Source: an uncultured Lachnospiraceae bacterium (GTDB lineage Bacteria; Bacillota; Clostridia; Lachnospirales; Lachnospiraceae). Taken from it: DNA of 33,146 nucleotides. A program made the position numbers and the translations under genes. Within the stretch, counting starts at the first letter, position 1; every line of letters begins with the position of its first letter. Positions 1-5,688 of the stretch are shown one piece after another. The notes below the pieces were generated by a model. That model was not told the DNA's origin. It worked only from the letters and a program-made list of their open reading frames with translations, and did not search any database. The stretch lies in the NCBI GenBank assembly GCA_947589125.1, contig CANPZZ010000011.1, positions 1-33,146 on the forward strand, given 5' to 3'.

Positions 1-38
1 ACAGGTGTTTATCTAACATATGTTCGATTAACGCCTGT
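1..38. promoter_or_regulatory. 38-bp near-perfect palindrome centred on a DinR/LexA-like box
   Basis: acaggtgtttatctaacatatgttcgattaacgcctgt: 16 of 19 symmetric pairs match. The core at 13-26, CTAACATATGTTCG, is 13/14 to the Gram-positive SOS box CGAACNNNNGTTCG. Confidence 0.5.
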
Positions 39-82
39 TCTTTTATCCTTCCCAAATCTCGGAATTTCCTATAAAGTAAGAA

Positions 83-106
83 AGACGGCCCCTTCCGGAG
101 CCGTCT
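83..106 (-). terminator. Rho-independent terminator for the choline-binding-type protein gene
   Basis: Stem agacggc/gccgtct. On the - strand it is followed by TTTCTTACTTT, just past the 144 stop codon. Confidence 0.6.
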
Positions 107-143
107 CATTTTTATACCGTATTCACTTCTCAGGGAAACAGCA

Positions 144-2576
144 TTACTGGATCCACACACCGTTGGCATCTACTTTGTAGCCATCCGGAGTTGTTCCGTT
201 CACGAACAGGGAGCCCTGCGGGCCGCCGCTCTCCGGACGGAAGTAATACCACTTGCCATCGATCTGCTGCCATCCGGTGTACATATGGCCCTGCGTGCCA
301 TCAGATACCGGATGCAGATAATAACGGTTGCCTTCCCATGTGACCCATCCGGTTACCATGTAACCCTCAGCGTCAAAGTAATACCAGTCGGTCTTGCCTT
401 CCCAAACCAGCTGTGCCCAGCCGTTCGCGGGCCATGTGCCGTCCGCATTCTCATACCACCAACGGATACCGTCAGCAGCCTTCTTCCACTGGCCGACAGC
501 AGCCTTCTTGGCGGAGGAAGAACCTGTGTAGCTTCCACCGGTTATAGTCTGTCTGTATACAAACGTCATACGGAACGGGCTGAAGGAACTCGTTATAAGC
601 TGCGCCATACCATCGGTGATATAAGAGCCGGTGCTGATAAGATCTGTGTAGCCCCATTCGCCGTCAACCTGATGCATCCACTCGACATAATTGCTGTCAG
701 CCGGACGAGCCGCGGGAACCGGAACATTTACAGTCACATAGCTGAAATAGTCTGTAAGAGAACCCTGCCCATCTTTCTTGCCACTCTTGTCAACAACATA
801 TACCTTTACGTCAATGTCCGCTTCCATACTCTCTACAACAGCTTTACCGTCCTCTAAGACCACGTTGATCTTCTGAACCGTAATCTCCGGTTCAACACAA
901 ACATCCTCGCCGTCTTTAAGCGTCAGCTGTTCAAGAAGCGCGTCAGCGTTTATTGCCCCAATCGTTGCTGTACCTTTGGCAATCTCCGCCTCAATAGCGT
1001 CTGCCTGAGCCTTAGTCACACCCTCACCCAGATTAGATGCACCCGGGGCAATCTGCGGGGCGACCGGAACAACTTCCACTTCATTATTGCCATTCACAGT
1101 GATATCAACGACCGCACTCAGCTTTTCAACTGCATACTGACCATCATAGACAACATCCAGCTTCGTCTGACCTGCCATCTTACCGGTAATTGTAACGCGA
1201 ATTACATCGTAATCAGAGACCCCGAAATACGGAGGGAATTCAACATCAACCACTGCCGAATCCATGCCAATCTTCCATTTTCCATCTGTCCAGAACTTTT
1301 CAAAGACTGCCTTTTTCTCATCTTCTTTCGCGTCTTTATCAGAGTACTCGATGAACATTTTTATCTTAGTCGGCTCATCTTTCTCTATCGCCAACGTGTC
1401 TTTTTCAAATCTCATGCCGGAGATTCTCAGTGATGCCTCGGTTACAGTCACCTTACATGTTGCCGTGATACCGTCAACGTTGACCGTCAGATCCGTTTCA
1501 CCCTTGGAAATCGCTTCGATCTCGATCTCAGCCGAATAAGTAGACGGATTCTCTTTCCAATTGATATGGATGACTTTGTCATCGAATGTCGTATTTGCAC
1601 CGCGAACATTCTTATAGAAGGTCGCCCACAGAGCGGCTTTCTGATCATCCTTAGTGACTTCATTGAAATCAACTGTCAGATTCACTGTCGCCCCATCTTT
1701 GCCAACGCTCACTGCAGTTTTGTCGAACTTTGCGGATTTAATAGCAGCTTCTTCAGCCTTATCAACGACGACCTCACAAGATGTCGATAACGTCTTCTCT
1801 GCCTTATCACCCTTGTATCCAACGGTCAGCGTATCTGAACCAACTGCCAAAGCTTTAACCCGAACTTTGAATTCCACTTCCTTACTTTCAAAGCTCTCCG
1901 GTTCGCTCCAACCCACAATCTCCACTGCCTTTAATTTATCGCCCGCATGGACTCCGGTCCAGTTGTCAACATCTTTCCAGAATTCTGTAAATACTGTCTC
2001 TCTCTGTTCTGGCGTAGCATTCTCATTAGTGAATGTCACCTTTATCGGAATGCCCTTTACATCAGTATCGCTTATACTAATGTGACGAGACTCTTGCACA
2101 AACTCCATGGTCGCGATCTTTAACGGTTCTTCTTTGGTTGCGGCCTTCACTGTAATCGTCGCTACACCCTTCACATCTCCATAGCTTACAGTAAGCCTCG
2201 CTGTAGAATCTTCGGTAACATCTTTGCTGGCCGTTACATCAACAATAATGTTCATACCATCTACTTTAACCAACTTCGCTGAAACCACCTCGGGTTTGTC
2301 GACAGTCACCTGCATTGCGTTATACGCACTTGCCAATGCAGCATTCTGATCGGACGCAACAATTGCATCTGAGCTAGTTGCTTTGTCGACGGTGGCTTTA
2401 AACGTAATCGTTTTTGTCTCGCCTGCCGTCATAGTGACTTCCTGGCTCTCATAAGTGATTGCCGTCACTTTCCACAACTCCGCCAGCGCTGAGAACGCAG
2501 ACGACGGCATCATGGTCAGCACCATCGCCGCGCACAGCAGTAAAGCCAGCTTTTTCTTTACTTCTCTTGCCTTCAT
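144..2576 (-). CDS. Secreted surface protein with tandem Ig-like repeats and C-terminal choline-binding/cell-wall-binding repeats
   Basis: Signal peptide (MKAREVKKKLALLLCAAMVLTMMPSSAFS). C-terminal repeats such as GWVTWEGNRYYLHP and GWQQIDGKWYYFRPE. RBS aaggag upstream of the ATG. Confidence 0.85.
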   Translation of the reverse strand: MKAREVKKKLALLLCAAMVLTMMPSSAFSALAELWKVTAITYESQEVTMTAGETKTITFKATVDKATSSDAIVASDQNAALASAYNAMQVTVDKPEVVSAKLVKVDGMNIIVDVTASKDVTEDSTARLTVSYGDVKGVATITVKAATKEEPLKIATMEFVQESRHISISDTDVKGIPIKVTFTNENATPEQRETVFTEFWKDVDNWTGVHAGDKLKAVEIVGWSEPESFESKEVEFKVRVKALAVGSDTLTVGYKGDKAEKTLSTSCEVVVDKAEEAAIKSAKFDKTAVSVGKDGATVNLTVDFNEVTKDDQKAALWATFYKNVRGANTTFDDKVIHINWKENPSTYSAEIEIEAISKGETDLTVNVDGITATCKVTVTEASLRISGMRFEKDTLAIEKDEPTKIKMFIEYSDKDAKEDEKKAVFEKFWTDGKWKIGMDSAVVDVEFPPYFGVSDYDVIRVTITGKMAGQTKLDVVYDGQYAVEKLSAVVDITVNGNNEVEVVPVAPQIAPGASNLGEGVTKAQADAIEAEIAKGTATIGAINADALLEQLTLKDGEDVCVEPEITVQKINVVLEDGKAVVESMEADIDVKVYVVDKSGKKDGQGSLTDYFSYVTVNVPVPAARPADSNYVEWMHQVDGEWGYTDLISTGSYITDGMAQLITSSFSPFRMTFVYRQTITGGSYTGSSSAKKAAVGQWKKAADGIRWWYENADGTWPANGWAQLVWEGKTDWYYFDAEGYMVTGWVTWEGNRYYLHPVSDGTQGHMYTGWQQIDGKWYYFRPESGGPQGSLFVNGTTPDGYKVDANGVWIQ

Positions 2577-2654
2577 TTTTCTCTCCTTTTCCTTTTCCTA
2601 CATCCTGGGGATATGTATTTTGGAAAATTATTAAGATTTCCCCAAGATTTTTTT

Positions 2655-2683
2655 ATTATACCCCCCCAGGCGGTCGGAGTCAA
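2655..2683 (-). promoter_or_regulatory. SigA-type promoter of the choline-binding-type protein with a G7 tract in the spacer
   Basis: - strand TTGACT (2683-2678), 17-nt spacer ccgaccgcctggggggg (2677-2661), TATAAT (2660-2655). Confidence 0.75.
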
Positions 2684-2688
2684 TATGT

Positions 2689-2733
2689 TTTACGAAAACC
2701 TTACGGAAAATATTATGAAAGTCTTACGGAGAT
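2689..2733 (-). repeat. Four direct repeats (TTYCRTAAN-like on the - strand) with 11-12 bp period upstream of the -35
   Basis: + strand: tttacgaaaac (2689), cttacggaaaat (2700), attatgaaagt (2712), cttacggagat (2723); offsets 11, 12 and 11 bp. Confidence 0.6.
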
Positions 2734-2776
2734 AATCACAAAAACTTTCAGTGGGCCGAACAGGCACTGAGTCAGC

Positions 2777-2805
2777 TTGCCCTTCTGCGGATTTCGTGCT
2801 ATAAT
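2777..2805 (+). promoter_or_regulatory. SigA-type promoter for the Rpn-like gene
   Basis: TTGCCC (2777-2782), 17 nt, TATAAT (2800-2805). Confidence 0.6.
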
Positions 2806-3039
2806 GGCATCGTCGGCAGGTGCTCCGTCGCCCGCCCCATATACATTTTCTGGTATCATGCCCCGACGCTCTCGGGCGGATCCCACCATGGACAGTCTCA
2901 GACTGCCTGAGTATTTTTCTCTGGCATGGACGCATTATCTCCATACCTTCCCGCGCGGCAGCCGCGGCACTGTCACGCGGCGGGAACTTTCAGGCCGCGT
3001 ACGCCCCTGCCCGGGGCTGAATTCGAAGGGGGGAATTCT

Positions 3040-4058
3040 ATGGGCATCCAAAATCTTCACGTCAATGAGCTTCTGAAACGCAGGGAAATATTTGCCGATC
3101 TCGTCAATGGCTCCCTGCACAACGGCAGGCAGATCCTGAAACCGGAAGACCTGACTCCTCTGCCGCCTCAGTCCGGCGTCGTCTTCTCCGGCCGCCGCGG
3201 ACGAGACAAAGCCGTCGAACGCACCGGCGACATCCGCATGAAGGCCGACTCCGGCACCTACTCTGTCATTTTCGCCGGCGAGGCCCAGGCCAATACCCAC
3301 TACGCCATGCCTGTCCGTAACATGCTCTACGACGCGCTGGAGTACACCCGCCAGGTGAAAGACCTGGAGAAGCAGCATCGGAGGGCGAAGGATCTGGCGC
3401 AGTCGGACGAGTTCCTTTCCGGCATGGCGAAGCAGGACCGATTCGGCCAGTCGTGAATACGGTGCTTTTCACGGGGGAATCCTGGGACGGCAGCGAGACG
3501 CTCCACGGACTGTTGGACATCAACCCGAAGGACATGAATACGAAAGAACTCCTTAAATACATACCTGACTATCGGATCAATCTGATTCCGGTCAGGGCGA
3601 TAAAAGAACCGAAGAATTACAAAACGTGTTTACAGCAGATATTCTCTATGATAAAATACAAAGATGACAAGGAGAAATTAAGCCGCTATGTGCAGGAGAA
3701 CCGGGAAGCGATCGATCAGATGGACAGCGTGGAACTGTCCGCGGCCCTGGTGATGCTGAACGACCGGCGGCTGGAAGAACAGATCGAACAGCAGAGAGCG
3801 AAGGAGGGAACGAAGGTGCTTGGATTATGTCAGGCTATTACAGATATGTTGAACGACAGTGAGAAAGCCGGCGAAGAACGCGGACTGGAACGCGGCTTAG
3901 AACGCGGCGAAAAGCTCGGACTGGAACGTGGTGAAAAGCGTCTGGCGCAGCTCTGCGACTGCCTCATGGAGGCGGGCCGTCTGGACGACATGAAGCGGAC
4001 ATTCACCGATCAGGAGTTCCGCGAATCCCTGTACGAGAAATTCGGTATCCGGGAATGA
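3040..4058 (+). pseudogene. Rpn family recombination-promoting nuclease/putative transposase (PD-(D/E)XK), frameshifted
   Basis: Two overlapping ORFs (3040-3456 frame 1, 3453-4058 frame 3) together give one Rpn-like protein: ...EAQANTHYAMPVRNMLYDALEYTRQV... then ...RPVVNTVLFTGESWDG.... Start ATG at 3040 follows an AAGGGGGG RBS. C-terminus has an ERGLERGLERGEK repeat. Confidence 0.75.
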
Positions 4059-4119
4059 TATTTCGAAACCCATTGCTTAGAATCCATCATTCCAATTCCA
4101 TTATAGGTGTAATCTCAGG

Positions 4120-4156
4120 CCGCGCCCGCGGGACATTCCCGGCGAGCGCGGTTTTT
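4120..4156 (+). terminator. Rho-independent terminator after the Rpn-like gene
   Basis: ccgcgcccg...cggcgagcgcgg followed by ttttt. Confidence 0.65.
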
Positions 4157-4206
4157 GTCTGCGGCGGTCTCGGAAATATCCCGCATCCATGCGCCAAAGT
4201 TAGCCC

Positions 4207-4235
4207 TTGAATCCCCATGAAAAATACAGTATAAT
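4207..4235 (+). promoter_or_regulatory. SigA-type promoter of asnS
   Basis: TTGAAT (4207-4212), 17 nt, TATAAT (4230-4235). Confidence 0.75.
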
Positions 4236-4296
4236 AATATACAATATGAGTTTATGCCCGCGGCGCAGGCGGGCGAGTCAGCAAAGGAGCATATTT

Positions 4297-5688
4297 ATGG
4301 ATATGATCACAGTAAGAGAATTATATCGCAGCAGAGAGAATTATTTTGACAAAGAGATCACCGTCGGCGGCTGGGTGCGCAGTATCCGCGACTCAAAGGC
4401 GTTTGGCTTCATCGTCGTCAGCGACGGCTCGTATTTCGAGACGCTGCAGGTGGTGTTCCATGATACCATGGCGAATTTCGAGGAGATCCGGAAATTGAAC
4501 GTGGGCGCGGCGATCATCGTGACCGGCACGCTGGTAGCGACGCCGGAGGCGAAGCAGCCGTTTGAGATCCAGGCTTCGGAGATCGCCGTGGAAGGCACCT
4601 CCGCGCCGGATTATCCGCTTCAGAAGAAGCGTCACAGCTTCGAGTATCTGCGGACCATTTCCCATCTTCGTCCCAGAACGAATACATTTCAGGCCGTGTT
4701 CCGCGTCCGGTCGCTGATCGCTTACGCGATCCATAAGTTCTTCCAGGAGCGGGATTTCGTCTACGTCCATACACCGCTTATTACGGCCAGCGACTGCGAA
4801 GGCGCCGGCGAGATGTTCCAGGTGACGACGCTTGACCCGGACAACCTTCCCCGGACCGCAGACGGAGCCGTGGATTATACCCAGGATTTTTTCGGCAAGC
4901 ACACCAGTCTGACCGTCAGCGGCCAGTTAAACGGTGAGACCTACGCCATGGCATTTCGCAATATCTATACCTTCGGGCCCACCTTCCGCGCGGAGAATTC
5001 CAACACCACGCGGCATGCGGCGGAGTTCTGGATGATCGAGCCGGAGATCGCGTTCGCCGATCTGAACGACAACATGGCGCTGGCTGAAAGCATGCTCAAG
5101 TACATCATCAATTACGTACTGGAGAACGCACCGGAGGAGATGAATTTCTTCAACCAGTTTGTGGACAAAGGGCTCTTAGAGCGGCTCCACGGCGTCGTAA
5201 ATTCCGAATTCGGCCATGTGACTTACACGGAAGCCATCGAACTGCTTGAGAAGAATAACGACAATTTTGACTATAAGGTATTCTGGGGCTGCGACCTGCA
5301 GACGGAGCACGAGCGGTACCTGACCGAGCAGATCTTTAAACGCCCGGTGTTCGTCACCGACTATCCGAAGGAGATCAAAGCCTTCTATATGAAGATGAAC
5401 GACGATGATAAGACCGTGGCGGCCATGGACTGCCTGGTACCGGGCATCGGAGAGATCATCGGCGGCAGCCAGCGTGAGGACGACTACGACAAGCTGCTTA
5501 AGAGGATGCGGGAACTGGGGCTTAAGGAAGAGGACTACCAGTTCTATCTGGATCTGCGGAAATACGGCTCCACCCGCCACGCAGGCTTCGGACTGGGCTT
5601 CGAGCGCTGCGTCATGTACCTGACCGGCATGGGCAACATCCGCGACGTCATCCCGTTCCCGAGAACCGTCAAAAACTGCGATCTATGA
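4297..5688 (+). CDS. asnS: Asparaginyl-tRNA synthetase
   Basis: [45 protein letters not shown]; class II motifs [21 protein letters not shown] and [38 protein letters not shown] before the ATG at 4297. Confidence 0.95.

Follow-up and report, generated by a model that had tools for sequence, protein, structure and literature searches.

The promoter at positions 2655-2683 on the minus strand of the window (the whole stretch of 33,146 nucleotides analysed here, contig C11 of a 2.5-Mb genome in 219 contigs, with named relatives that are mostly Lachnospiraceae) is a member of a class of promoters, recurrent in Lachnospiraceae, with a run of non-template-strand Gs occupying the 3' portion of the spacer between the -35 and -10 hexamers. 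Comparison of copies within this class points to a mechanism in which replication slippage would change the length of the G run, and hence the -35/-10 spacing, and so tune or switch transcription. With seven Gs and an optimal spacing of 17 nt the window copy is predicted to be ON, and the gain or loss of a single base, giving 18 or 16 nt, would be expected to result in graded, weaker expression. We give this scenario, with rare and graded change in the window copy, roughly even odds (about 0.5); slippage as the cause, its effect on expression and any variability of the window copy are the parts of it that we infer from sequence. As we read the evidence, the G-tract promoter of the window is genuine, is in its optimal-spacing state and is at most slowly phase-variable.

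The window promoter and the gene downstream

The sequence-only reading had placed TTGACT and TATAAT on the minus strand upstream of a choline-binding-type gene, with a spacer of exactly 17 nt that includes a G7 homopolymer, and both parts of this description were confirmed. TTGACTCCGACCGCCTGGGGGGGTATAAT matches exactly at 2655-2683, occurs once in the window and in none of 100 shuffles, and reads on the minus strand as TTGACT-CCGACCGCCT-GGGGGGG-TATAAT, the last 7 of the 17 spacer bases being G. Among promoter-like sites in positions 1-5000 this one scores best, with 11 of 12 consensus bases. Based on these matches to the two boxes, we regard it as a promoter of the housekeeping type (sigma-A-like) serving a gene for a choline-binding surface protein. 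Its homopolymer lies between near-consensus -35 and -10 hexamers, as in promoters of the porA/opc/fetA type. The features are listed below; the position of +1 follows from the standard -10 to +1 spacing.

2690-2735, plus strand: four ~11-bp units of the TTACG type, arranged as two 23-nt direct repeats; the array stops 6 bp short of the -35 on its upstream side and is a putative binding site for an activator
2678-2683, minus strand: -35 hexamer TTGACT, a 5/6 match to TTGACA
2668-2677, minus strand: 10-nt non-repeat part of the spacer (leader), CCGACCGCCT
2661-2667, minus strand: G7 homopolymer, which closes the 17-nt spacer at its 3' end, directly next to the -10
2655-2660, minus strand: -10 hexamer TATAAT
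2648-2654, minus strand: A7 run between the -10 and the predicted +1 (~2648)
2577-2590, minus strand: ribosome-binding site region, AAAAGGAGAGAAAA
144-2576, minus strand: gene under control of the promoter; the 810-aa product has a signal peptide and, towards the C-terminus, choline-binding repeats (PF19127, 3.4e-12; PF01473, 9.1e-7)
82-107, minus strand: strong intrinsic terminator directly past the 810-aa gene

The distance from the promoter to the ATG of the 810-aa gene is 78 nt, and the terminator beyond the gene suggests a single-gene transcript. The signal peptide and the choline-binding repeats mark the product as an exported or surface protein, presumably located at the cell wall. No ortholog of its N-terminal 545 residues was found in 25 genomes of the genus. 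Pfam searches with the neighbouring ORFs 2690-2944 (minus strand), 2926-3456 (plus strand) and 3453-4058 (plus strand) gave no match. The two plus-strand ORFs are adjacent and in different frames with a 4-nt overlap, and the C-terminal end of the second is a charged ERG-rich repeat, which we take to be typical of Rpn-type nuclease/transposase proteins.

The repeat array upstream of the -35 is common to the window promoter and the region of a licC-like gene, which suggests an added layer of regulation. We found the half-array TTACGNAAANYTTACGNAAA in 23 of 26 genomes of the genus, with about one copy in each (0 matches for the reversed control). There are only two copies in the window's genome, one of them at the window promoter, and apart from this copy and two odd cases the half-array is located before the licC-like gene, which in our reading resembles a phosphocholine cytidylyltransferase/choline kinase fusion (licC/licA-like). 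On the opposite side of the licC-like box, where the contig extends that far, is a divergent gene for a small surface protein, a signal-peptide protein of the 418-aa type. Positions of the ~11-bp direct-repeat box (TTACGTAAAACTTACGAAAA type) are 2690-2735 in the window, L067:225-244 and L153-L176. Units phased at 11 bp are suggestive of a regulator of the OmpR/PhoB type, which would couple the decoration of the wall with choline to the proteins binding it, and a regulon for choline decoration and choline-binding proteins is possible.

Poly-G spacers across the Lachnospiraceae

When 397 genomes of the same family were searched with the pattern TTGA-N2-12-G7+-N0-10-TATAAT, we obtained 45 matches versus 2 for the reversed control and 10 for the poly-C equivalent (G versus C, p=2e-6). 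The G run abuts TATAAT, as it does in the window, in 20 of 40 G-tract promoters of other genera, where run lengths are mostly G8-G11 and spacings range from 14 to 20. The usual spacing of 16-17 nt was found in 22% of 18 abutting G-tract promoters as opposed to 70% of 148 ordinary TTGACA/TATAAT pairs (p=1.4e-4). Genes after G-tract promoters frequently encode exported proteins, lipoproteins or choline-binding proteins; by a simple signal-peptide rule, 22 of 37 such genes passed versus 5 of 25 genes behind ordinary promoters, a background taken from the window's own genome alone (p=0.004). Choline-binding repeats were scored downstream in four other genomes of the window's genus (G007, G009, G016 and G020) and in proteins of two other genera (G073 and G293), and further genes under G-tract promoters encode a GGDEF protein, an ABC transporter ATPase and an acyltransferase.

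In an unbiased sample of 30 G9+ runs many were in coding frames and one was a clear promoter case; promoter tracts are therefore a minority of long G runs, albeit enriched over controls. Some genomes of the family (G085, G132, G143, G054 and G109) have G9+ matches by the dozen. Long open frames contain many of the runs sampled, which suggests rich coding phase variation in these genera.

Length differences between near-copies support slippage-driven variation of promoter spacing in the class. The comparison is between paralogs and between neighbouring species, in collections with one genome per species, and we found that: (i) in the clearest case, two copies from a recent duplication in G103 are nearly identical over ~240 bp of promoter, leader and signal-peptide sequence, and the sole indel between them affects the G run (G9-TG in one and G7 in the other, with spacers of 20 and 16, respectively); (ii) G377 and G061 have G10 and G9, respectively, before homologous genes; (iii) paralogs in G129 have G9 and G10 with conserved flanks and (iv) paralogs in G073 also vary in tract length between conserved flanks. 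Genus-limited searches for length variants turned up no additional species with the tract near G377 and G073. From these comparisons, surface-protein promoters with longer G runs are probably slow genetic dimmer switches.

The suggestion from the sequence-only reading that this is a phase-variable surface-protein promoter can thus be upheld in part. What stands is that a choline-binding-protein promoter with a G homopolymer in its spacer, analogous to porA and fetA, falls in a recurrent Lachnospiraceae class, and that neither tract length nor spacing is constant among near-identical copies of its longer members. For the window copy itself the claim has to be scaled back: the tracts that vary in other genera are longer than G7 (mostly G8-G11), which counts against slippage here, and length changes should be rare because the run is short. 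Moreover, the window's genome contains no G run of 9 or more, and any switching of the window promoter should therefore be slow, in keeping with the earlier remark that seven Gs fall short of the classical tracts and the rate may be low.

Fixed or variable Gs

The principal competing scenario is of a fixed element of the promoter and not a switch, with selection maintaining the length of the G run. Gs upstream of the -10, or a stiff G-tract, would determine basal promoter strength or dependence on an activator; an example of such an element is the extended -10 position, with which sigma region 3 makes contact. We consider this possible, with the odds against it. It draws on a second G-run promoter in the window's genome, TTGACA-TTTC-G7-CATA-TATAAT with a spacer of 15 (contig C23), which precedes a gene for a 1107-aa signal-peptide protein with InlB-type and choline-binding repeats. 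Orthologs of this gene within the genus provided 12 aligned promoters from 12 species (loci L238, L233, L234, L239, L241, L244, L247, L250, L253, L258, L259 and L262). The core TTGACW-TTNC-G7-YAYA-TATAATAATA is conserved over the 12 species amid diverging surroundings, with G7 in 10 of 12 and a spacer of 15 in 11 of 12. The G013 promoter has G6 plus an A and keeps the spacer of 15, that of G014 has G6 and a spacer of 14, and in G016, G019 and G020 the spacer of 15 is retained despite a one-base shift of the run. In an orthologous promoter of the G019/G020 pair G7 is unchanged, with flanks that otherwise diverge. That the spacer is held at 15 despite shifts of the run argues for a fixed element in this sub-class, unlike a hypermutable tract. 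The strong bias for G over C (45 versus 10) also favors a fixed element; it is not predicted by slippage alone. Given this bias and the near-invariance of the sister family, the Gs may have a role beyond setting the spacing.

Two further observations concern promoters of this design. The sister family, whose members are choline-binding proteins of ~940-1140 aa, keeps a tandem -10 (TATAATAAT) across the 12 species. At L254 and L257 (G019:C46 and G020:C147) a promoter with G7 and a 15-nt spacer stands before an ABC transporter ATP-binding gene, and the design is therefore not restricted to surface proteins.

A fixed element leaves unexplained both the G8-G11 runs with spacings of 14-20 in other genera and the length differences between near-copies, and the window spacer is 17, not the conserved 15. 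The window promoter shares its abutting geometry and gene type with the variable class and its run length of 7 with the fixed class. On balance, we think that slow variation in spacing is somewhat more likely for this promoter than a purely fixed element.

It is improbable that the run is a chance homopolymer without a role in an ordinary promoter. The run is short and the exact window promoter was found in one genome only, as might be expected by chance, but the 232 TTGNNN-N16-18-TATAAT sites and ~21 distinct runs of at least seven Gs in the 2.5-Mb genome lead to an expectation of only ~0.011 promoters per genome with G7 in the spacer. We inspected all ~21 runs; most are in coding frames and three (in the window, C23 and C63) are within promoter-like spacers before surface-protein genes. 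The C63 promoter, TTGACG-N10-G7-TATTTT, has the 10+7 geometry of the window promoter with a weaker -10, and the downstream gene encodes a signal-peptide protein with the N-terminus MKRRVMSVVLSAAMALSLAVPTMAA. Together with the enrichment of poly-G spacers across the family, these counts speak against coincidence, and the G-run promoter of the window is not a chance occurrence. More improbable still is that the run is recognized, within a larger binding site, by a dedicated regulator common to surface-protein promoters: the core conserved in 12 species and the likeness of the genes controlled would fit, but neither a palindrome nor a direct repeat surrounds the run, and the classes have only the G run in common, its position and the spacer differing between them.

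Relation to known phase-variable systems

Phase variation in gut Firmicutes is known mainly through invertible promoters (see also PMC11892184). If slippage does act as we propose, control of wall-bound proteins through promoter spacing in many Lachnospiraceae genera would give major commensals a second way of generating surface differences between cells. It would also be simple to read, since tract length in metagenome reads already available could reveal the state of a promoter. We found no report of poly-G spacer promoters in Lachnospiraceae in the open-access literature. A wider proposal, which has a reasonable chance of being correct but which we put forward tentatively, is that poly-G spacer promoters before choline-binding and other exported proteins form an undescribed, family-wide set. 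They would serve as hypermutable rheostats of surface display in most genera, and in the window's genus the run would have contracted to G7 and become a fixed, distinct promoter element, in some cases with a 15-nt spacer.

There is precedent in Neisseria for the kind of control envisaged here. In fetA and porA the length of a spacer homopolymer sets spacing and expression (PMC5320596), and high expressers of Opc have C12 where the parent has C11 (PMC3447861). As in these promoters, the window homopolymer lies between the -35 and -10 of a surface-protein gene. Neisseria belongs to another phylum, however, and its tracts are mostly longer (C10-C14 in fetA), although those of gonococcal porA, where the gene is not intact, are given as G6-G8 (PMC5320596). 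Neisseria also uses both poly-G and poly-C, whereas the Lachnospiraceae spacers are dominated by poly-G, 45 to 10. Within-species variation and a change in expression have been demonstrated in Neisseria, whereas the Lachnospiraceae case is built on sequence comparison.

A further parallel is found in Cutibacterium acnes, a Gram-positive commensal in which the promoter of the putative adhesin gene PPA1880 has 11, 13 or 15 Gs with reported spacers of 18, 20 and 23 and strain-specific secretion, for which a spacer mechanism was proposed (PMC3224659). The G tract is again in the spacer; it differs from that of the window in being longer, in belonging to the Actinobacteria, in its observed strain variation and in concerning one gene as opposed to a family-wide set. 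In Bifidobacterium breve, a gut Gram-positive, G-tract slippage likewise controls a surface structure, the pili (PMC9187656), but the tract there is in coding sequence and acts by frameshift, whereas that of the window is in a promoter spacer. Set against these systems, the promoter-spacer homopolymer is of a known kind, and novelty appears to lie in the lineage, in choline-binding proteins as targets and in the bias towards the G strand.
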